NCBI RefSeq assembly: GCF_021129175.1
Contig: NZ_JAJOHV010000060.1
Coordinates: forward strand, 1 to 44,920
From: Chromobacterium piscinae
Lineage (GTDB): Bacteria > Pseudomonadota > Gammaproteobacteria > Burkholderiales > Chromobacteriaceae
DNA length: 44,920 nucleotides
Direction of reading: 5' to 3'
Part shown: piece by piece, positions 5,690 through 14,988 of the stretch
Layout of the letters: every line of letters starts with the position of its first letter
Numbering within the stretch: the stretch's first letter is position 1
The notes under the pieces: model-generated
Told to the model about the DNA's origin: nothing
Seen by the model: the letters and a program-made list of their open reading frames with translations, nothing else
Database searches by the model: none
Program-made: the position numbers and the translations under genes

Positions 5690-6370
5690 TCATTCCGTGG
5701 GCTTTTCTATTACCAGCACGCTGGGAGCCCAGGCATAGCGCGTGCCATCGTCGTAAGCACCTTGATAAAACTTCGGCTGCACTAGCCTTGCCTCTAACCC
5801 ATCCAGACACACCAGCTCCTGCGCAACTTCCCACAATCGCCTGGACTTATGTTGCAGCCAAGCCACGGGAGTATCATGCCGAACCTTCTGTCTGGGCTCA
5901 TCAACACCGAGCCAGAACGCGAGACAGCCAAACTCCAATGCTCCCCCGCACCAGACACTCAACTCCAAAGCATCACGCAGCCTAGCTACATCCTCAAACA
6001 GACGTGCACCCGGCTCCGCCAAGTAATTCTTCACCTCGACAATCGCTCTAGGCACACCATCCTGGCCAACCTCGGGAGCTACCCACAGCACAACATCAGC
6101 CCTGCCATCCAGCCTAAGAGTCACTCTGGGCACCTCGTCGAGACACACATTTGCATACTCCAACGTCTCGCGCATACCGGCCTCTAAGGTGACATAACAA
6201 CCTTCCTCCACATCCACCAGCTCTCTTGCAACAGCACAAGTCAACAAGTACTCCGGCGCTCCGTGAAGCCCCTCATCCCCCGTCCATCTCAAGTACTCCC
6301 GATACGCCTTTCGGATACCAGTGCAGATTGCCCCCTCCACTTCGCTCTTCGAAACTCTCAACGCCGTCAT
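5690..6370 (-). CDS. Hypothetical protein with PD-(D/E)XK-like core
   Basis: Not recognised as a named family. The 226-residue protein has a helix with EYLLTCAVARELVD, then GRADVVLWV followed by RAIVEVKNY. A D then an E-x-K spaced this way on neighbouring strands is the signature of the PD-(D/E)XK nuclease fold. The C-terminal half is rich in tryptophan and aromatic residues. Two starts are plausible: ATG 6370 (GGAGG eight bases upstream, chosen) or ATG 6400 (also GGAGG at eight bases), giving ten more residues. No signal peptide or membrane segment is seen. It is a lone gene whose GC content is visibly lower than its neighbours, flanked upstream by AT-rich DNA, which suggests horizontal acquisition. 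A role in cleaving nucleic acid is inference only. Confidence 0.6.
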   Translation of the reverse strand: MTALRVSKSEVEGAICTGIRKAYREYLRWTGDEGLHGAPEYLLTCAVARELVDVEEGCYVTLEAGMRETLEYANVCLDEVPRVTLRLDGRADVVLWVAPEVGQDGVPRAIVEVKNYLAEPGARLFEDVARLRDALELSVWCGGALEFGCLAFWLGVDEPRQKVRHDTPVAWLQHKSRRLWEVAQELVCLDGLEARLVQPKFYQGAYDDGTRYAWAPSVLVIEKPTE

Positions 6371-6552
6371 GTCGCGCCCCTCCAAAATGATGGTCAGCAT
6401 AAAAATTGCCTCCGCCCATGCAAGATAAATCAATGGATCATGCAAAATGAAAGTCCGGCGCATCTTGCGGTTGAAATCCCCCCACCCAGAAGTTTCTATT
6501 TATGAAGCGATGGCAAATCCGCCACGCCGATTCCATCAAATAACAATCAGGT

Positions 6553-6581
6553 TTGATTTAATAACGGTTTTCGCTTATAGT
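6553..6581 (+). promoter_or_regulatory. Candidate sigma-70 promoter of the magnesium module
   Basis: TTGATT (6553-6558) and TATAGT (6576-6581) are separated by exactly 17 bp in AT-rich DNA. Transcription would begin near 6588, about 315 nt before the first leader ORF. The rest of the 6371-6904 gap holds AT-rich sequence to about 6650 and then two hairpins at 6693-6741, with no recognisable gene. Confidence 0.5.
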
Positions 6582-6692
6582 TGGCTTGTTATTAATTTTG
6601 CAAAGGCAAACCGTGGACAACGACGGTTCTAGTCGATCTTCGATCGCAGTATAAGCCTTGCAGGATTTCAGCAGACCGAACACTCTTCCTCT

Positions 6693-6741
6693 GCCGCATC
6701 CTGCAAGCAGGATGTGGCGTCCAGATCCGGCGGCAAGCCGG
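6693..6741 (+). promoter_or_regulatory. Two adjacent strong hairpins in the 5' leader
   Basis: A 12-bp stem (6693-6704 with 6707-6718, one G-T pair, two-base loop) is followed by CCGGC (6727-6731) pairing with GCCGG (6737-6741). No T-run follows, so it is not a simple terminator. It lies between the candidate promoter and the first leader ORF. Confidence 0.5.
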
Positions 6742-6904
6742 TTCCCAAGCCGCAATACGACGCACCGCGCCTCATGATGGATACTGTCCGGCCTTGATTG
6801 GCCGCATCCTCAACCGAGCCAGCGTCGCCGCGGCCAGCCCCCATCGACAGATCACGCGTCAGACGGATTGTTTGCGCATGCTTTCGTTTCGCAAAGGAGA
6901 TTCC

Positions 6905-6961
6905 ATGCCGGAAGAGCCAGAACCGCGAGCGAATGCGTCGCACGCCTGCCGGACAGGCTGA
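6905..6961 (+). CDS. Putative regulatory leader peptide 1 (MPEEPEP type)
   Basis: An 18-codon ORF, MPEEPEPRANASHACRTG, preceded by AAAGGAG five bases before the ATG, one of the best ribosome sites in the window. The peptide alternates acidic residues and proline at its start. In enterobacterial MgtL (beginning MEPDP) this pattern destabilises the translating ribosome when Mg2+ is low. The last codons overlap a hairpin, GCCTG (6944-6948) with CAGGC (6954-6958), so ribosome position would change RNA folding. The stop is 140 nt before the start of the first small MgtC-domain-like gene. A second ORF with the same seven first residues at 7530 makes chance unlikely. Function is inferred. Confidence 0.65.
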   Translation: MPEEPEPRANASHACRTG

Positions 6962-7101
6962 CCTTCCCTCGGGTGGGAATAAGCAGACCAGCAGCTGCGC
7001 GATATTCGCTCGTTCAATATCGGAGTACATCCGTGATTACGGTTTATTCAACCGGAACGGGATGTTTATTACCTGTTGAAATAATAATGGGGGGACTCAA
7101 T
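6962..7101 (+). promoter_or_regulatory. Structured leader between leader peptide 1 and its gene
   Basis: This 140-nt interval holds a stem CGATATT (7000-7006)/AATATCG (7016-7022), a small CCGT/ACGG hairpin (7031-7042) and a weak TTATTA/TAATAA pairing near the ribosome site. It also contains GGTTTA (7041), TGTTTA (7063) and TGTTGA (7074), spaced 22 and 11 bp. That phasing resembles PhoP-box direct repeats. Whether it acts as RNA, as an operator or both is not resolved. Confidence 0.4.
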
Positions 7102-7479
7102 ATGCACGCCCTGAAATTGACCCAGCTGCTGAAATTCTTCACCCGCAATAATCAAACTGCCGCATCCGCCGATTTCCGCCTGAATATTGTTTGCGATAAA
7201 GACGTGATCACCACGCTGCGCAAACGCCTGTTTTGGGAAATGCACGATCTGGGCCTGCGCGCCTCTCAGGTCACCATCGCGCCGGAAGGCTCCGATAGCC
7301 ACTGCAAGCTGTCAGTAGTGCTGAACTGCCCGCTGCAACAACGCCAGATTCTGGACGACATGGCGCTGCGCCTGAGCCAATTGCCGGAGATCCATCGCGT
7401 CCACTGGGGCCGCCGCGCGCAAGCCGCCCGCCCGCAGACGCGCGGACTGTTCGGCCACGGCCGCGCCAGAATCGCCTGA
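7102..7479 (+). CDS. Small MgtC-C-terminal-domain-like (ACT-like) protein 1
   Basis: A 125-residue soluble protein with no signal peptide or membrane segment. Residues about 24-103 follow the pattern of the ACT-like C-terminal domain of MgtC/SapB proteins: a first strand FRLNIVC, a helix TTLRKRLFWEMHDLGL, a strand KLSVVLNC, a helix with MALRLSQLP and a last strand HRVHW. The N-terminal transmembrane domain of MgtC is absent. A basic tail follows. The ATG at 7102 is preceded by GGGGGA; the ATG at 7087 has no site. It lies under leader peptide 1 and upstream of a paralogue and mgtA, so a role in Mg2+ homeostasis is inferred. Assignment rests on pattern likeness, not a search. Confidence 0.65.
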   Translation: MHALKLTQLLKFFTRNNQTAASADFRLNIVCDKDVITTLRKRLFWEMHDLGLRASQVTIAPEGSDSHCKLSVVLNCPLQQRQILDDMALRLSQLPEIHRVHWGRRAQAARPQTRGLFGHGRARIA

Positions 7480-7529
7480 CATCCATAAATTCATCCGCCA
7501 CGCCGCCTTAAAACGAGGAACACGCCGAC

Positions 7530-7577
7530 ATGCCCGAAGAGCCCGAGCCGCAAACAGCAAGCCTTCGCCGCCGGTAA
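7530..7577 (+). CDS. Putative regulatory leader peptide 2 (MPEEPEP type)
   Basis: A 15-codon ORF, MPEEPEPQTASLRRR, with GAGGA about ten bases before its ATG. Its first seven residues equal those of leader peptide 1 while its codons differ (CCC/CCG, CCC/CCA, GAG/GAA), so the peptide rather than only the DNA appears conserved. The RRR tail recalls the PRRR segment of E. coli MgtL. The stop is 133 nt before the second small gene, nearly the same spacing as in the first unit. Confidence 0.65.
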   Translation: MPEEPEPQTASLRRR

Positions 7578-7710
7578 CCCCCTGTCGTAAGCATCGGGGA
7601 ATGCCGCCGCGGCATGACCCGATCCGTTTCGCGTCCCCAAGCTGGACGCGGACATCCGTCGCCGCGCGCGATGGCCGGCCCGTCCGGCCCCGCGCGGCCA
7701 GGAGCTTACG
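7578..7710 (+). promoter_or_regulatory. Structured leader between leader peptide 2 and its gene
   Basis: Three strong hairpins fill this interval. ATCGGG (7593-7598) pairs with CCCGAT (7618-7623) around an inner ATGCC/GGCAT stem. CGCGTCC (7630-7636) pairs with GGACGCG (7644-7650). A nested stem CCGCGCG (7662-7668)/CGCGCGG (7691-7697) contains GGCCGG/CCGGCC. The last one ends two bases before the AGGAG ribosome site of the next gene. The density of structure supports an RNA-level control element. Confidence 0.55.
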
Positions 7711-8052
7711 ATGATGCAGAATCCCTTCCTGAATCCGCGCCAACAACAGCGCTACCAATTGTCGATCGCCTGCCCGGCCATGTCGCTGGGCGCGGCCCGC
7801 CGCGAGCTGCGCGGCCAGGCGCTGAAACACGGCCTGCGCATCCTGCAATGGCGGGAACAGCCGCAGGCCCCCGCCCGCGGCGCCATCCTGGCCGCCGCGC
7901 CCTGGCTGATCAGCGCCGACTTCCGTTCCGACTCCACCTCCTGCATGCATTTCCTGCAGGGCATCGCCCAGCGGCTGACCACGCTGCCGCTGACCCAGGT
8001 GAAGCTGGAATGCCTGTCGCTGCCACCCACCGCCAACCGCGCGCTGGCCTGA
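7711..8052 (+). CDS. Small MgtC-C-terminal-domain-like (ACT-like) protein 2
   Basis: A 113-residue protein that appears to be a diverged paralogue of the one at 7102. RYQLSIACP matches FRLNIVCDK, the helix LGAARRELRGQALKHGLRI matches TTLRKRLFWEMHDLGLRA, WLISADFRS matches KLSVVLNCP, and FLQGIAQRLTTLPLTQVKLE matches ILDDMALRLSQLPEIHRVHW. It has no membrane segment. AGGAG lies six bases before the ATG at 7711 (a second ATG follows at 7714). Its own MPEEPEP leader lies upstream. A regulatory or Mg2+-related role is inferred from fold likeness and from mgtA downstream. Confidence 0.6.
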   Translation: MMQNPFLNPRQQQRYQLSIACPAMSLGAARRELRGQALKHGLRILQWREQPQAPARGAILAAAPWLISADFRSDSTSCMHFLQGIAQRLTTLPLTQVKLECLSLPPTANRALA

Positions 8053-8356
8053 CGCCGTCTTCCTAAATCATGCGCCGCGCCTTCGCGCCCGGCGTCCAAG
8101 CAGCACAGGAGATGGCATGACATAGCGCCCCCCCCATAACCTTTTGAGATGCCACCCGCTGGGGCGTTCGCATAGAGCCCCCCAACGGGCGGCAATGTTC
8201 TCTCGCTTTTCGAGCTGACACATTGTCGGCGCTGATGCACGAGAGCCTGCTCAATATCCTTTCCGACATCGGCCGTTTCACGGCGCGCGGAAGGCGAAAT
8301 CGCGAGCACGCTCGAATGGCAGGGCTGGTCGTGCCCGCAGCGCCAGGAGATTTACC
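8053..8356 (+). promoter_or_regulatory. Long 5' leader of mgtA
   Basis: This 304-nt gap has no MPEEPEP copy. It holds a compound hairpin at 8151-8193 (GCC/GGC, CCCG/CGGG and GGGGC/GCCCC). A further hairpin CTCG (8202-8205)/CGAG (8211-8214) has an alternative partner, since CTCTCG (8200-8205) also pairs with CGAGAG (8240-8245). An AGGAG at 8107 precedes only a two-codon ORF. An eight-codon ORF ends at 8217, 139 nt before mgtA. A 41-codon ORF from ATG 8235 ends at 8360 in an ATGA overlap with the mgtA start, but it has no good ribosome site. Confidence 0.4.
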
Positions 8357-11101
8357 ATGACCAAGAACCTCACCCCCCGCAAACGGAACCGGGGCTTCAT
8401 CGCCGCTCCGGGCAAAACCGGCGACCAAATCGCCTTCCGCCTGGCCCATGAAGCCTTGCTGCCGCAGGAAGAAACCTTCAAGCGGCTGCGCAGCCAGCCG
8501 GAAGGCCTGACCTCCGCCGAAGCCGCCCAGCGGCTGGAGCAATACGGCCGCAACGAAGTGGCCCACGACAAGCCGCCGCATGCGCTGATCCAGCTGCTGC
8601 TGGCATTCAAGAACCCGTTCGTGATGGTGCTGATCGCGCTGGCCGCGATCAGCTATGTGATGGACATCGCGATGGCGGCGCCAGACGATCAGGACTGGAC
8701 CAAGGTCATCATCCTGGCCAGTATGATCGGCGTCAGCGGCCTGCTGCGTTTCTGGCAGGAATACCGCTCGGCCAAGGCGGCGGAAAAACTGAAGTCTCTG
8801 GTGCGCAACACCGCCACCGTCCAGCGCCGCCCCACTTCCCCCACCGTGCCGCTGCGCATGGAAGTGCCGATGACCGAATTGGTGGTCGGCGACGTCATCC
8901 ACCTGCAAGCCGGCGACATGGTACCCGCCGATGTGCGGCTGCTGGAGTCCCGCGACCTGTTCATCAGCCAGGCGGTGCTGACCGGCGAAGCGCTGCCGGT
9001 GGAGAAATACGACACCCTGGGCGCGGTGGCCGCCAAGTCCGCCGACGGCCAGACCGACGGCGAGGCCGGCCTGCTCGATCTATCCAACGCCTGCTTCATG
9101 GGCACCAATGTGGTGTCCGGCACCGCCCGCGCGGTGGTGGTGGCCACCGGCACCGATACTTACTTCGGCTCGCTAGCGCGCAATGTGGTCAGCCACAAGC
9201 GCATCGAAACTAGCTTCGACAAGGGCGTCAACAGCGTCTCCTGGCTGCTGATCCGCTTCATGCTGGTGATGGTGCCCATCGTCTTCATGATCAACGGCGT
9301 CACCAAGGGCGACTGGATGTCCGCCCTCACCTTCGCGCTGGCGGTGGCCGTGGGCCTGACGCCGGAAATGTTGCCGATGATCGTCTCCGCCAACCTGGCC
9401 AAGGGCGCAGTGGCGATGGCGCGGCGCAAGGTAGTGGTGAAGCGGCTGAACTCGGTGCAGAACTTCGGCGCGATGGATGTGCTATGCACCGACAAGACCG
9501 GCACCCTGACCCAGGACAAGATCATCCTGGAGCACCATTACGACGTCTACGGCGACAAGGACGAAACCACGCTGCAACTGGCCTGGCTCAACAGCTTCCA
9601 CCAGAGCGGCATGAAGAATCTGATGGACATCGCCATCGTCGAGCGCGCCGATGAGCTGGGCGAGCGCGTCAAGCTGCGCCATTACAGCAAGGTGGACGAG
9701 CTGCCGTTCGATTTCGAGCGCCGCCGGCTGTCGGTGATCCTGCAGGAGCAGAATGGCCAGCAACTGATGGTGTCCAAGGGCGCGGTAGAGGAAATGCTGG
9801 CCGTCTGCAGCCACATCCAGGACGGCGATGAAGTGCGCGCGCTGAACGCGCAAGAACGCGCCCGCCTGCTGCGCCTGAGCCAGGAATTCAACGCCGAAGG
9901 CTACCGCGTGCTGGTGGTGGCCACCCGCCATATCCCGTCCGACGAGCGCAAGAACGCTTACCAGACCGCCGACGAGCGCGGCCTGGTGGCGCGCGGCTTC
10001 CTGACCTTCCTCGATCCGCCCAAGGACTCCGCCGCGCCGGCGATCAAGGCGCTGAACGAGTACGGCGTCACCGTCAAGGTGCTGACCGGCGACAATCCCA
10101 TCGTTACCGCCAAGGTTTGCCGCGACGTCGGCCTCAATCCGGGCAAGCCGCTGCTGGGCCCCGAGATCGAGGCGATGGACGACGTCGCGCTGTGCGCCGC
10201 GGTCAAGCGCACCACCATCTTCGCCAAGCTGACCCCACTGCAGAAGTCTCGCGTGGTGAAAGCATTGCAGGCCAACGGCCACACCGTCGGCTTCCTCGGC
10301 GACGGCATCAATGACGCGCCGGCGCTGCGCGACGCCGACGTCGGCATCTCGGTGGACAGCGGCGCTGACATCGCCAAGGAAACCGCCGACATCATCCTGC
10401 TGGAAAAGAGCCTGATGGTGCTGGAGGAAGGCGTGATTAAGGGCCGCGAAACCTTCGGCAACATCCTCAAGTACCTGAACATGACCGCCAGCTCCAACTT
10501 CGGCAATGTGTTCTCGGTGCTGGTGGCCTCCGCCTGGCTGCCGTGGGAGCCGATGCTGGCGATGCAGCTGTTGCTGCAGAACCTGATCTACGACCTGTCG
10601 CAGATGTTCCTGCCCTGGGACAAGATGGATCCGGATTTCCTGAAGAAACCGCGCAAGTGGGAAGCCGGCAACATCAAGCGCTTCATGCTGTGGCTGGGGC
10701 CGACATCCTCGGTGTTCGACATCACCACCTACATCCTGCTGTGGACAGTGTTCGGCGCAGGCGCGGCCTACCACATGCACGGCGGCGACGGCGGCCAGCT
10801 GATCATGAACACCGGCTGGTTCATGGAAGGCCTGATCTCGCAGACCCTGGTGGTGCACATGCTGCGCACCCGCAAGATTCCGTTCCTGCAGAGCACGGCG
10901 TCGCTGCCGGTGCTGCTGTCGACTTCGATCGCCATCGCCATCGCCTGCTATCTGCCGTTCTCGCCGATCGCGTCCTCGCTGGGCTTCATCCAGCTGGACA
11001 CCAGCTACTTCTGGTGGCTGCTGCTGACGATGGCCGGCTATCTGGCGCTGACGCAGACGGTGAAGACCATTTACATCAAGCGTTACGGTCAATGGTTCTA
11101 A
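8357..11101 (+). CDS. mgtA: Mg2+-importing P-type ATPase (P3B, MgtA type)
   Basis: Inner-membrane pump that hydrolyses ATP to bring Mg2+ into the cytoplasm. The 914-residue protein has the actuator TGEALPVEK (209-217), the phosphorylation site DKTGTLT (D379), a KGA nucleotide-binding motif and the hinge GDGINDAP (648-655). Membrane helices lie at about 85-115 and 295-345, with a C-terminal block after about 700. ALTFALAVAVGLTPEMLPMIV matches the P3B membrane core, and length and order match MgtA/MgtB. AGGAG lies seven bases before the ATG. The long leader and the paired leader-peptide units upstream suggest Mg2+-responsive control, as mgtA has in enterobacteria. Confidence 0.96.
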   Translation: MTKNLTPRKRNRGFIAAPGKTGDQIAFRLAHEALLPQEETFKRLRSQPEGLTSAEAAQRLEQYGRNEVAHDKPPHALIQLLLAFKNPFVMVLIALAAISYVMDIAMAAPDDQDWTKVIILASMIGVSGLLRFWQEYRSAKAAEKLKSLVRNTATVQRRPTSPTVPLRMEVPMTELVVGDVIHLQAGDMVPADVRLLESRDLFISQAVLTGEALPVEKYDTLGAVAAKSADGQTDGEAGLLDLSNACFMGTNVVSGTARAVVVATGTDTYFGSLARNVVSHKRIETSFDKGVNSVSWLLIRFMLVMVPIVFMINGVTKGDWMSALTFALAVAVGLTPEMLPMIVSANLAKGAVAMARRKVVVKRLNSVQNFGAMDVLCTDKTGTLTQDKIILEHHYDVYGDKDETTLQLAWLNSFHQSGMKNLMDIAIVERADELGERVKLRHYSKVDELPFDFERRRLSVILQEQNGQQLMVSKGAVEEMLAVCSHIQDGDEVRALNAQERARLLRLSQEFNAEGYRVLVVATRHIPSDERKNAYQTADERGLVARGFLTFLDPPKDSAAPAIKALNEYGVTVKVLTGDNPIVTAKVCRDVGLNPGKPLLGPEIEAMDDVALCAAVKRTTIFAKLTPLQKSRVVKALQANGHTVGFLGDGINDAPALRDADVGISVDSGADIAKETADIILLEKSLMVLEEGVIKGRETFGNILKYLNMTASSNFGNVFSVLVASAWLPWEPMLAMQLLLQNLIYDLSQMFLPWDKMDPDFLKKPRKWEAGNIKRFMLWLGPTSSVFDITTYILLWTVFGAGAAYHMHGGDGGQLIMNTGWFMEGLISQTLVVHMLRTRKIPFLQSTASLPVLLSTSIAIAIACYLPFSPIASSLGFIQLDTSYFWWLLLTMAGYLALTQTVKTIYIKRYGQWF

Positions 11102-11163: not shown

Positions 11164-11423
11164 TATCGCCAACTCGCCTTTAGTTCAGCAACATCCAAGC
11201 CGCCAGGATTTTTGTGCAAAACCTGCACTTTTAGACAGCTAGTATTCGTACCTAAGCGCTCCCGCCTCTTCTTCCCGCCTCATGATAATCACGGCCCCTC
11301 CCTCATGCCGGCCGCCTCCCGCAAGCTGTGGAAATTAATCTGGCAAGGCTTCGTCCATATCCATCCTCTCTGGGCTGAATTACCACAAACAGTATCCATT
11401 CCAATAACCAGATGGAGAAAATC

Positions 11424-13337
11424 ATGAGCATGGACGATGCAGGCGGCCAGAAACGCTGGGCGCGCGATTACGTGTTCGACATCCTGAGCCAGCTGGGCAT
11501 ACACCGTATTTTCGGCGTGCCCGGCACCAACGAGATTCCCATCATCGACGGCACGTCCTACCCGGAAAACCAGGTGGAGTACATCGAGTGCCTGCACGAG
11601 AACATCGCCATCGGCGCGGCGATGGGCTCGGCGCGGATGACCGGCAAGCCCGGCGTGCTGGTGGTGCACGTGACGCCCGGCATCGCCCACGCCATCGGCA
11701 ATCTGTTCAACGCCTGGCGCTCACAGGCCCCGCTGGTGATCCTGTGCTGCCAGCAGCAGAACGAGCTGGTCACCCAGGAGCCTCTGCTGGCATCCAATCT
11801 GGTGGACTTGGCCCGTCAATACACCAAGTGGGCGCATGAGGTCCGCACTGAGCAGGAATTCCCAATGGTGCTGCAGCGTGCATTCAAGGAGGCGATGGCG
11901 CCGCCCAACGGCCCGGTATTCGTCGCCATCCCGTGGGAATTCACCATGCGCCGCATCGGCGACGACGACCGCATCAAGGGCGTGACGAAGATTTCGCCGC
12001 ACTTCACCGCCGATCGCCAGGCGATAACGCAGGCGGCGCAGCTGCTGCGCGAGGCCAAGAACCCCATCATCGTCACCGGAGACGCCGCCGGCTACGCCGA
12101 AGCCTGGCCGGAACTGCAGCGGATGGCGGAGCTGCTGGGCGCGCCGGTGCTGCAGCAAACCTTCAGCAGCCTGGCCAACTTCCCCAACAACGATTACCAC
12201 TGGCAGGGCGAGCTGCCCGGCAGCCAATCCGGCGTGCAGCAAGTGTTCGCCGGTCATGACGTCGCCTTCCTGTGCGGCTTCAGCAACCAGGCGCAGATCA
12301 CGGTCTACAAGTACAGCGACGGTCCGCTGATTCCGCCCTCCGTCACCCAGGTCTACCTCAGCAACCATACCTGGGACATCGGCAAGAACTACTACGGCGA
12401 GGCCGCGCTGTTCGGCGATCTGAAAGCCACGCTGCCGCTGATCAACCAGTTGATCGGCGACCAGCCCTCGACCGCGGCCGTTGCCCGCAACGCCAAGCTG
12501 AAAGAGCTGGCCGCCCAGCGCAAGGTCGCCTGGGACGCCTACCTGCGCGAAGCGATGCATCAGAACGAGATCTGGGCGGTGGTGATCGCCGACGCGCTGC
12601 GAAAGGAAATCGGCGAGCGCCAGCTGGAAAAGCAGTTCGTCTACGTGCACGAGGCGGTGTCCGATCCGGCGCCGTTCCAGTACCTGCTGCCATTCACCGA
12701 CCAAGCGGCTGCGCCGATCAGCTACTACTGCGTCGGCGGCGGCTCGCTGGGCTGGTCGATGCCGGCCACGCTGGGCATCAAACTGGAGCCGGACGGCTGC
12801 CAGGGCATAGACACCCGCTTCGTCGTCGCCGCCACCGGCGACGGCTCCTCGCTGTTCTACCCGCAAACCTGGTGGACCGCGCAACACCGCCAGCTGGGCG
12901 TGCTCTACATCATCACCAACAACCACGAGTACCACACGCTGCAGATGGGCCTGCAGCAAGTGGAGTCGATATACGGCGACGCGCCGGGCTACGAATGGAC
13001 CGCCAAGACGCAAGACCCGGAATACCTGCGCATCCATCGTCCCAAGCCGGATTTCGTCACCCTGGCCAAGGCCTTCGGCGGCATGGAGGGCGAAATCGTC
13101 CGCCATCCGGAGGACGTGCGCGCGGCAGTCAGGCGCGGCATTGACCACGCGCTGGGCGGCCACGCCTACGTGCTGGACATGCATACCATCGGCCTGGAAC
13201 AAACCCCGCCCACGCCGGAAGAAGCCAATGCCCGCTACGAGAAACAGCCCCGCCTGGACTGCTTCCACTTCGGCGCGGACGCGCTGAGGCGCAGCGACGA
13301 CGCTGGCCTGCCGGGCAATGTGCCGGTGATTTTCTGA
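11424..13337 (+). CDS. Thiamine-diphosphate-dependent enzyme (acetolactate synthase/decarboxylase superfamily)
   Basis: A 637-residue ThDP enzyme of the POX family fold. An N-terminal pyrimidine-binding domain carries the catalytic glutamate in CLHENIAIGAAMGSA (E59). A central domain follows at about 195-350. The C-terminal pyrophosphate domain has GDG at 472-474 and NN at 499-500, the metal-binding spacing of the family. The exact reaction is not readable: relatives include acetolactate synthase, benzoylformate and phenylpyruvate decarboxylases, and carboligases. The ATG at 11424 is chosen over 11412 because GGAG is correctly spaced. An amino-acid-oxidase-like gene starts 31 nt downstream, so the enzyme may act on the 2-oxo acid made there. 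It is unlikely to be the housekeeping IlvB because no small subunit follows. Confidence 0.85.
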   Translation: MSMDDAGGQKRWARDYVFDILSQLGIHRIFGVPGTNEIPIIDGTSYPENQVEYIECLHENIAIGAAMGSARMTGKPGVLVVHVTPGIAHAIGNLFNAWRSQAPLVILCCQQQNELVTQEPLLASNLVDLARQYTKWAHEVRTEQEFPMVLQRAFKEAMAPPNGPVFVAIPWEFTMRRIGDDDRIKGVTKISPHFTADRQAITQAAQLLREAKNPIIVTGDAAGYAEAWPELQRMAELLGAPVLQQTFSSLANFPNNDYHWQGELPGSQSGVQQVFAGHDVAFLCGFSNQAQITVYKYSDGPLIPPSVTQVYLSNHTWDIGKNYYGEAALFGDLKATLPLINQLIGDQPSTAAVARNAKLKELAAQRKVAWDAYLREAMHQNEIWAVVIADALRKEIGERQLEKQFVYVHEAVSDPAPFQYLLPFTDQAAAPISYYCVGGGSLGWSMPATLGIKLEPDGCQGIDTRFVVAATGDGSSLFYPQTWWTAQHRQLGVLYIITNNHEYHTLQMGLQQVESIYGDAPGYEWTAKTQDPEYLRIHRPKPDFVTLAKAFGGMEGEIVRHPEDVRAAVRRGIDHALGGHAYVLDMHTIGLEQTPPTPEEANARYEKQPRLDCFHFGADALRRSDDAGLPGNVPVIF

Positions 13338-13368
13338 ACGCAATCCACCCAGAGAAGGAAACAGCACC

Positions 13369-14988
13369 ATGGCTGAAGAAAATTTCGACATCGCCATCGT
13401 CGGCGGCGGCGTATCCGGCGTTTATTGCGCCTGGCGGCTGAAACAAACCAACCCCGGGCAGAAGATCGCCGTATTCGAAGCCAGCGACCACATCGGCGGG
13501 CGGCTGCTGTCAGTGCGCCCGCCCGACATTCCCGACATGGTGGCGGAGCTGGGCGGCATGCGCATCCTGCCCGCGGTGCAGCCGCTGGTGACAAAATTGA
13601 TTACCGAATTGAATCAGGAGCTGCCGGCCGACGAACAGATTTCGCTATATAAATTTCCGGTGGACGAGCCCCAGAACATCGCCTTCCTGCGCGGCGTCTA
13701 CCTGCGCCTGGCCGACTTCACCAACGATCCGGACATCGTCCCCTACCAGCTGAATTTCATCGACCACGGCCAAAGCGCTGGCGAGGTGATCGTCAACGCG
13801 ATCGAACAGATCGTGCCCGGCATCACCAACTCGAACCTGAGCGAGGAACAGCGCCGCGAAATGGCGCAAAGCGCTGAATTCGGCGGCGTGCCGCTGTACA
13901 AACAAGGCTTCTGGAACGTGCTGCTGCGGGTCATCACCGGCGAGGCTTACCACTACGCCGAAGATGTCGGCGGCTACGACTCCACGCTGTGCAACTGGAA
14001 CGCGGCGGACGCGATTCCATGGTATCTGTCCGACTTCGGGGTCAGTCCAGAATACATGGGCTTCAGCAACGGCTTCCAGCAGGTGCCGCTGTCGCTGGCG
14101 CAACTGTTTGAAAAATCCGGCGGCGATGTCAGGCTGGCATCCCACATCTCCCACATCACGCTACAGGGAGACGGCTTCGCCTTCCAGGTCAACGGCAGCG
14201 CGGCGACGGCCAAAAAGCTGATCCTGGCGATGCCCCGCCGCTCGCTGGAACTGCTGACTGCCACCAGCCCGGCGCTGCAGGACGCCAAAACCCAGGCGCT
14301 GATCTCCACCGTCACGCCGCGGCCGCTGTTCAAACTGTTCACCACCTATAACAGCCCCTGGTGGCGCAACACCGGCTACTCCTCCACCGACGACGACGGC
14401 AAACCGATCTACGTCGCGGTGCAGGCCGGCCGCTCGGTCACCGACCTGCCGGTGCGGCAAACCTACTATTGGCCGAAAAGCGATGGCACCGCCGCCACCG
14501 AAGGCCATGCGATGCTGCTGGCCAGCTACGACGACGGCGACAACACCGGTTTCTGGGACGGGCTGCGCGCCAAGCGCCGCCAGCCCAGAGCGCTCGGTAG
14601 GGATGTGGCGCAACTCGCCGATCCCTTCATCGGCGTGGACGACAATGTGCAGCGCGACGAGCTGGAATGGCACCAGTACAAGGCGCCGCGGATGATGACC
14701 GAGGAAGTGACTCGCCAGCTGACTGTGATGCACAGCCTGAACTACACGCCCAAAGTGCGCAACGCCGCCTACCGCGACTGGGGCGACGATCCGTTCGGCG
14801 GCGGCTGGAACAGCTGGAACATCGGCGTGAAGAGCTGGGAAGTGAAGCATGCGGTAGTTCAGCCCACCGACCTGCCGCTGTACATCTGCGGCGAGGCCTA
14901 TTCCGACGCGCAGGGCTGGGTGGAGGGCGCGCTGCAGACCGCCGGCTATCTGTTGGCAAAACTCGGCGTCGCGCCCTTCCCGCGTTAA
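13369..14988 (+). CDS. FAD-dependent L-amino acid oxidase / flavin amine oxidase
   Basis: A 539-residue flavoprotein of the amine-oxidase family. The Rossmann motif GGGVSG lies at 12-17 with the ribose-binding E37 in VFEAS, then GGR (43-45) and the following MVAELGGMRI segment. The C-terminal FAD motif CGEAYSDAQGWVEGAL is near 500-525. Such enzymes oxidise an amino acid to the 2-oxo acid with release of ammonia and H2O2, and bacterial and molluscan relatives are antimicrobial through the peroxide. No signal peptide is seen, so it is probably cytoplasmic. GAAGGAA precedes the ATG. It forms an operon with the ThDP enzyme. Substrate is unknown. Confidence 0.82.
   Translation: MAEENFDIAIVGGGVSGVYCAWRLKQTNPGQKIAVFEASDHIGGRLLSVRPPDIPDMVAELGGMRILPAVQPLVTKLITELNQELPADEQISLYKFPVDEPQNIAFLRGVYLRLADFTNDPDIVPYQLNFIDHGQSAGEVIVNAIEQIVPGITNSNLSEEQRREMAQSAEFGGVPLYKQGFWNVLLRVITGEAYHYAEDVGGYDSTLCNWNAADAIPWYLSDFGVSPEYMGFSNGFQQVPLSLAQLFEKSGGDVRLASHISHITLQGDGFAFQVNGSAATAKKLILAMPRRSLELLTATSPALQDAKTQALISTVTPRPLFKLFTTYNSPWWRNTGYSSTDDDGKPIYVAVQAGRSVTDLPVRQTYYWPKSDGTAATEGHAMLLASYDDGDNTGFWDGLRAKRRQPRALGRDVAQLADPFIGVDDNVQRDELEWHQYKAPRMMTEEVTRQLTVMHSLNYTPKVRNAAYRDWGDDPFGGGWNSWNIGVKSWEVKHAVVQPTDLPLYICGEAYSDAQGWVEGALQTAGYLLAKLGVAPFPR

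Follow-up and report, generated by a model that had tools for sequence, protein, structure and literature searches.

Acidic leader ORFs ahead of small MgtC-type genes and mgtA in Chromobacterium as candidate Mg2+ attenuators

What is the role of two short ORFs that open with the same seven residues, MPEEPEP, and stand one before each of two small genes followed by mgtA? The arrangement occurs in a contig (NZ_JAJOHV010000060.1) of Chromobacterium piscinae, of a genus of soil and water bacteria, from which a whole stretch of 44,920 nucleotides was analysed (hereafter, the window). An earlier note had proposed that the two ORFs form an Mg2+-sensing attenuator analogous to MgtL, used twice. The primary papers behind the work on acidic leaders are reportedly Chadani 2017, Gall 2016 and Zhao 2011 and, to our knowledge, ribosome destabilisation by acidic nascent chains serves as a regulatory sensor mainly in enterobacterial Mg2+ genes. 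According to the accessible text of the sources, acidic and proline residues hinder or abort translation of MgtL and thereby control an Mg2+ transporter (PMC11282234, PMC11552253), and acidic residues hinder translation of the MgtQ leader (PMC8092293). The same sources describe that bL31 counters the hindrance, and that how the RNA folds and how the next gene is expressed depend on whether leader translation is aborted or completed (PMC8092293, PMC11282234, PMC11552253).

The operon and its two leader ORFs

On the plus strand, the predicted operon runs in the order promoter-like site, 5' RNA element, leader 1, gene 1, leader 2, gene 2, structured stretch and mgtA (Table 1). The promoter-type scan found one site, as compared to 0.6 expected by chance, and its -10 sequence TATAGT is kept across the 12 aligned genomes of the group to which the window belongs (the window group). 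A scan for intrinsic terminators gave a single match, on the minus strand, with 2.6 expected. The 257-aa ORF adjoining the operon (5690-6463, minus strand) has no Pfam match. At 11412-14988 lie a TPP-dependent enzyme (PF02776/PF00205/PF02775) and then a second ORF, which we take to resemble a FAD-dependent amine oxidase; the two are possibly a small biosynthetic pair.

Table 1. Features of the predicted operon, in window coordinates
Feature	Position	Strand	Description or basis
Promoter-like site TTGATT-17-TATAGT	6553..6581	+	Sequence scan; alignment
5' RNA element, model R2	6599..6721	+	Two mutually exclusive covarying helices
GTG-start ORF VDNDGSSRSSIAV within 5' element	6613-6654	+	
Shine-Dalgarno (SD) AAAGGAG of leader 1	6893..6899	+	Sequence; SD pairing energy
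Leader 1 MPEEPEPRANASHACRTG	6905..6961	+	ATG 6905, 18 codons, stop ends 6961
Possible hairpin over leader 1 stop	6957..6984	+	By eye; 5' arm could alternatively pair with gene 1 RBS
Small gene 1	7102..7479	+	125 aa, stand-alone MgtC/SapB C-terminal domain PF21770
Leader 2 MPEEPEPQTASLRRR	7530..7577	+	ATG 7530, 15 codons, stop ends 7577
Possible anti-RBS CGTAAGC	7586..7592	+	Complement of 7704-7710 GCTTACG, between gene 2 SD and start
Small gene 2	7711..8052	+	113 aa, without family match
Near-invariant RNA upstream of mgtA, model R1	8106..8232	+	
Two-codon ORF ATG ACA TAG (Met-Thr-stop)	8117..8125	+	SD AGGAG 8107-8111
mgtA	8357..11101	+	Magnesium-translocating P-type ATPase, 914 aa

The gene after the two small genes scored 1281 bits against TIGR01524 of NCBIfam (cut-off 611), thereby confirming the mgtA assignment of the earlier note. 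Gene 1 is a marginal member of PF21770, with 27.5 bits for a gathering cut-off of 27. Gene 2 matched no family in Pfam or NCBIfam, and gave zero matches in a PDB sequence search. The small genes had been called paralogous; two small genes are indeed present, but their kinship is plausible and no more than suggestive (profile-profile E 0.037, probability 1.4%). The search with gene 1 gave six loci. C. vaccinii MWU205 matches at 99% identity, and C. sphagni, C. amazonense, C. sinusclupearum, C. alticapitis and C. subtsugae are also named among the matches. A PDB sequence match of gene 1 to a designed pentatricopeptide protein (E 0.0018) was short, and was set aside as spurious.

Both leader ORFs, 18 and 15 codons long, are present as the earlier note described them, with 140 nt between the stop of leader 1 and the start of gene 1 and 133 nt between that of leader 2 and gene 2. 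Leader 2 is thus an acidic ORF in the intergenic region between the two small genes. The common MPEEPEP is written in different codons, three of the six after the ATG differing, all synonymously. A degenerate DNA pattern for MPEEPEP matched the 5.0 Mb draft genome (194 contigs) twice on the forward strand, at leaders 1 and 2, and never on the reverse; the pattern read backwards, as a control, gave no match. A good ribosome site had been ascribed to each ORF. This is true of leader 1 and partly of leader 2, since their SD pairing energies of -8.7 (strong) and -5.9 kcal/mol (modest) stand against 112 background ATGs, whose median is -2.5 kcal/mol and whose best tenth reaches -7.1 kcal/mol or lower. 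In 3 of 12 close relatives, leader 2 has almost no SD (-0.7, +0.9 and +0.9 kcal/mol).

Conservation and peptide-level constraint of the leaders

The search of relatives that the earlier note had proposed found short acidic ORFs upstream of the same genes. The family search took in 19 Chromobacterium genomes, with gene 1 present in 18 and absent from one (G023). An acidic/proline leader precedes gene 1 in all 18 (MPEEPEPR in the 12 of the window group, MLIEDPEPR in five forming a second group and MSEEPEPR in one, G020) and gene 2 homologues in 17 of 18 genomes (MPEEPEP in eight, MPEEPGP in three, MPEDPEP in one and MSEEPEP in five). The sole gene 2 homologue without a leader is that of G020, where the gene lies at another locus. 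The E-to-G change of leader 2 in three relatives was counted against the leader reading, as were weak SDs in some. Under the same rule, no leader was found before the first of the three small genes in the second group or the first small gene in G020 and in G010; extra small-gene copies in G020 and G026 also had none, and were counted against. Leaders were seen next to mgtA, next to MgtC-domain genes and, in G020, next to an mgtE-like ORF: here MTEEPEPEPR stands directly before mgtA, just after that ORF. G010, which belongs to another genus, has MSDDPRPR ahead of its second small gene and an ORF MSDDSYGPIP, read by eye, ahead of mgtA. MSEEPEPQ (without SD) and MNDDSYP occur before mgtA in G023. 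In the G020 locus (L074, 2805-5758), the ORF lying between the small genes and mgtA is presumably mgtE.

The search was widened to other families with one uniform rule: an SD, an ATG start, 8-62 aa, at least two D/E in residues 2-8, and a position 90-650 nt upstream of an mgtA match. Two families, f4 and f31, were entered without use of the leader, by way of the small gene or of the 5' element. The f4 sample comprised 200 genomes from a larger group, 100 of which had a small MgtC-type gene, and the best 30 of 103 small-gene places were read. A leader lay between small gene and mgtA in 17/17 loci with mgtA next (MPSALDPEPRLRP, MPATADPEPRWRR, MPNSDEPEPRLRW, MPGAIDSEPRLRR and variants), and an acidic leader in 0/13 loci without mgtA in the stretch examined. 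The f31 sample comprised 150 genomes, with the 5' element in 29; the 28 loci read included 25 with mgtA, two with the small gene only and one with neither. The uniform rule gave 17/17 loci in f4 and, in f31, 14/14 of genus g137 (MNSDDSSRLPLAG type) and 11/11 of genus g115 (MEDGSSRM.PVG type), and f4 and f31 pooled gave 42/42 mgtA loci of the types DPEPR, DDSSR and EDGSSR, counts that are not independent events because genomes within a set are related. The second Chromobacterium group together with G020 and G010 gave 5/7, the two missed being the G020 and G010 ORFs. None of the 12 window-group genomes carries an acidic leader directly before mgtA, which was counted against the reading. The shuffle expectation was 0.1 to 0.2 in each small set. 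The acidic cores seen were of the types EEPEP, DPEPR, DDSSR/DDSYP and EDGSSR.

The other mgtA loci of the order gave 2/63, with 2.1 expected from shuffles. These 63 are what is left of 66 loci, the higher-scoring part of the mgtA places in the order search, after removal of G339, for which the sequence was too short, and of G195 and G291, which are part of the f4 count. Acid/proline leaders ahead of other mgtA homologues were therefore dropped as a candidate: a loose rule gave isolated matches (L082, L127, L136, L150, L154), and the uniform rule gave chance level. The most leader-like of the isolated cases, MDPDPSRSC.. in G190, some 780 nt ahead of the MgtA match, stands alone. A class-level sample of mgtA loci gave no match to an SD-preceded acid/proline leader.

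At the 13 f4 loci with a small MgtC-type gene and without mgtA in the stretch examined (L193-L201, L204, L208, L210, L211), the small gene follows the GTG-start motif of the 5' element in 13/13, and other genes adjoin, by eye CtaG-like or porin.

Constraint was examined by pairwise synonymous/nonsynonymous counts in three frames. For leader 1 (12 sequences, six unique), pN/pS in frame 0 was 0.00 in the core (codons 2-8), where any ratio in the other frames was at least 1.3, and 2.83 in the tail (codons 9-12). The leader 2 core (codons 2-7) gave 0.14 in frame 0. The MPSA-type leaders of f4 gave 0.20 in the core and 1.48 in the tail, with 0.38 for all 17 f4 cores over seven codons, and those of f31 g137 gave 0.32 and 1.17. 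In frames 1 and 2, the cores of leader 1, leader 2, f4 MPSA-type and f31 g137 were all at least 0.82. Two tails were low in frame 1 (0.19 over four codons and 0.29 over eight), which we attribute to small numbers, having no other explanation to offer. Thus the test for synonymous bias that the earlier note had proposed came out in favour for the cores of leaders 1 and 2, with the exception of two second-group Chromobacterium sets of five sequences each. These gave 0.66 and 0.37 in frame 0 and 0.35 and 0.37 in frame 1, and are uninformative because the frame 1 ratios equal or fall below those of frame 0 and differences are few; their lack of a clear frame preference was counted against the reading. 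The GTG-start ORF of the 5' element gave 0.83 in frame 0 versus 0.61 and 0.66 in f4, and 0.68 versus 0.76 and 0.58 in f31 (16 rows, including two g115 rows with the ORF one codon shorter), and was rejected as a further leader peptide for want of a frame preference. Since the cores are limited in frame 0 and the GTG ORF is not, the leaders appear constrained as peptides and the 5' element as RNA. By these counts, peptide-level constraint falls on the acidic core alone, and an acidic/proline N-terminal chain is under selection, as in leaders of the MgtL type.

RNA elements and predicted folding

The 5' element was treated as RNA first, because its GTG ORF has no frame preference. It is near-invariant in the alignment of the 12 genomes. 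By nhmmer it was found in the second-group and G020 loci, G010, G195, G291 and G337, and not in G023. Its covariance model matched 11/399 genomes of the order at E<=0.01, in families f1, f4, f5, f15, f21 and f31. The f21 match is weak (E 0.005), yet lies just upstream of mgtA and carries the motif; the G320 match (E 0.008) is unlike the element in appearance. Downstream of the element are small MgtC-type genes, mgtA, or a gene that we take to be a porin; none of these was identified downstream of the weak matches in G320 and G994 and the second in G291. Acidic leaders are absent in three of its six families, and the mgtA loci with element and without leader, in G674 (f5), G121 (f15) and G126 (f21), were counted against; the 63 other loci include G121 and G126 and do not include G674.

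The two mutually exclusive helices (columns 71-77/153-159 and 147-157/165-175) have 94% and 96% of cells paired, and three and two doubly changed pairs, respectively. For each structure as a whole, including the third hairpin common to both, the percentage paired, the number of double changes and the covariation score were higher than in all 500 shuffles, though related sequences can beat shuffles without structure. The structures were not above shuffles on pair types, and were above all slid versions on cells paired. A search of Rfam with window positions 6400-8500 gave no match at E<=1 for the 5' element or the mgtA-proximal element, hence none to the known Mg2+ RNA families Mg_sensor and M-box. 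Six related loci gave just two sub-threshold Rfam matches, to other families.

The earlier note had held that each small gene has a leader instead of one serving the ATPase. This did not hold as worded: in many relatives an acidic leader stands immediately ahead of mgtA, in the window a two-codon ORF takes that place, and an intergenic acidic leader for a single gene has a precedent in mgtQ, as the accessible text of PMC8092293 describes it. The RNA around the two-codon ORF (model R1) was found in 12/61 family genomes searched, all Chromobacterium and all of the window group. The pattern ATG-[AC]C[AC]-TA[AG] is present in 12/12, with ACA, CCA or ACC giving Met-Thr or Met-Pro and a stop that is TAG in eight and TAA in four, never TGA. 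Its SD (-6.4 to -7.4 kcal/mol) is close to that of mgtA itself (-6.4 to -7.7 kcal/mol), and most positions right after its stop are variable. The R1 structure shows almost no covariation (1/35 pairs) because the element hardly varies. In loci L065 and L066, one hairpin loop of R1 holds an insertion of about 75 nt. The second group has, in the same interval, an ORF starting MTD[DE]SYP[RL]PP; on this basis, the two-codon ORF might be what is left of a leader, or its minimal form. If a true attenuator, it would be among the shortest attenuator ORFs.

The possible hairpin over the leader 1 stop codon was unsupported by consensus fold or covariation of a short automatic alignment; by eye, most single sequences seem able to form it. 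The segment at and after this stop could form 4 to 9 Watson-Crick pairs with the SD region of gene 1, often no more than shuffles did. The CGTAAGC/GCTTACG helix, just past the leader 2 stop, is an exact 7 bp in 7/12 genomes. In a simple fold model, the gene 2 RBS became easier to open with the ribosome at the leader 2 stop (-2.4 kcal/mol on average), less so with it at codon 5 (-0.8) and not at codon 8 (0.0); for leader 1 the means were +0.1 (codon 5), +0.5 (codon 8) and -0.6 kcal/mol (stop). Under this model the sign for leader 2 is opposite to a simple switch in which ribosome drop-off turns on the next gene, and no consistent switch appears for leader 1; both results were counted against the leader reading, and abortion may turn the genes either on or off. 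A simple scan, which is no proof of absence, found no Rho-like C-rich window in the leader stretches above the 95% background mark of 1.83 (1.72 in the leader 2 stretch, none in that of leader 1; the gene 2 coding region reached 2.1).

Interpretation and relation to known systems

We consider it likely that the leaders are cis-acting translated peptides whose acidic/proline chain destabilises its own ribosome at low Mg2+, altering expression of the next gene. Both ORFs would be translated and would act in cis. Their first residues (EEPEP, acidic and proline) would weaken the ribosome making them, more so when Mg2+ is scarce, and early abortion, as opposed to arrival at the stop codon, would lead to a different fold of the next ~135 nt, which in turn would set expression of the following gene. 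Each small gene of the window operon would have its own copy of the leader. mgtA would be controlled by its own acidic leader in many relatives, and by the two-codon ORF in structured RNA in the window group. Of the MgtL-like attenuator that had been proposed, the part that stands is a set of acidic/proline leaders, conserved as peptides, tied to Mg2+ genes and near MgtL and MgtQ in kind; translation, abortion, the Mg2+ response and the RNA switch with its direction we infer by analogy with these.

That the sequences are conserved as RNA or DNA, with the reading frame accidental, would fit a locus where the adjoining 5' element and the mgtA-proximal element are conserved as RNA, but we disfavour it and give it a very slim chance. 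Core variation falls almost only on third positions (variable columns by codon position 0, 0, 3 in leader 1 and 0, 1, 3 in leader 2), frame 0 alone is constrained, and the 5' element under the same test has no frame preference. Peptide-level conservation would equally suit trans-acting micropeptides with, for example, MgtA or the small proteins as targets. Here the constraint on the first residues, with tails free to vary in sequence and length (15-18 aa in leader 1, 13-22 aa in leader 2), and the similar distance from leader to gene in 12 genomes (135-143 and 110-157 nt, respectively) speak against such a role, which we regard as quite improbable.

An alternative that keeps the leaders in cis dispenses with acidic destabilisation: slowing of the ribosome at proline codons would sense EF-P activity or charged tRNA-Pro, a mechanism put forward for MgtP and, before that, for MgtL. 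Prolines are mostly kept in the Chromobacterium and f4 cores, and the accessible text of PMC6460261 links EF-P to mgtA. The MPEEPEP cores, however, have no consecutive prolines, and the f31 DDSSR and EDGSSR leaders have little early proline and keep the acidic cluster, so that we think this alternative unlikely. The best reading is that of ribosome-aborting nascent chains at low Mg2+, as reported for enterobacterial MgtL and MgtQ.

A broader picture may be drawn tentatively, and could well prove wrong: an undescribed layered Mg2+ control of mgtA operons in the order, made up of a two-state 5' RNA (six families), acidic leaders with at least four cores placed before mgtA or gene by gene, and, in one Chromobacterium group, a two-codon leader remnant (Met-Thr/Met-Pro-stop) in near-invariant RNA. 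Our literature search, for which most subscription journals were out of reach, found no account of the leaders or the 5' element, and none of a leader peptide tied to Mg2+ in this order. What seems new is the lineage, the genes that are targeted, the use of the same motif twice in one operon, the diversity of cores and the two-codon ORF. If different acidic leaders do act beside like genes in three other families, ribosome stability would be a more widely used gauge of Mg2+. The variety of cores is a natural motif set for testing which residues matter, and the 5' RNA and two-codon ORF are new leads on ion-sensing RNA and on the minimum length of a regulatory ORF.

The following comparisons go by the accessible text of the sources cited. 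The class of per-gene, intergenic acidic leader is already known, because MgtQ of Salmonella, between mgtC and mgtB, is likewise a short acidic ORF with its own SD in an Mg2+ operon, and serves only the next gene, whose RBS can be sequestered (PMC8092293). MgtQ differs in having 8 aa with Asp2/Glu5 and one Pro, in its gene (mgtB), in its sequence and in its occurrence in enterobacteria and relatives, and its stem-loops were tested by mutation, whereas those in Chromobacterium are predicted (PMC8092293). MgtL shares an acidic/proline N-terminus (EPDP) before a gene for an Mg2+ P-type ATPase, and the mgtA leaders of many relatives are alike in this (PMC11282234, PMC11552253); the window leaders, in contrast, precede small MgtC-domain-type genes, in stretches without a Rho-like window above background. 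MgtM and MgtP of the Salmonella mgtCBRU operon are likewise several leader ORFs in a single Mg2+-starvation operon; they differ in responding to ATP and charged tRNA-Pro, and both lie before mgtC, unlike the window with one per small gene (PMC8092293). CorL, the corA leader, resembles the leaders described here in that its translation is inversely tied to an Mg2+ transporter, and differs in being single and having few acidic or proline residues (PMC11552253). The CruR-type copper uORF of Bordetella is a metal-responsive leader ORF from a betaproteobacterium too, but is a 145-residue protein of unrelated sequence that uses a CXXC motif to sense copper and stalls at RAPP (PMC9426467).
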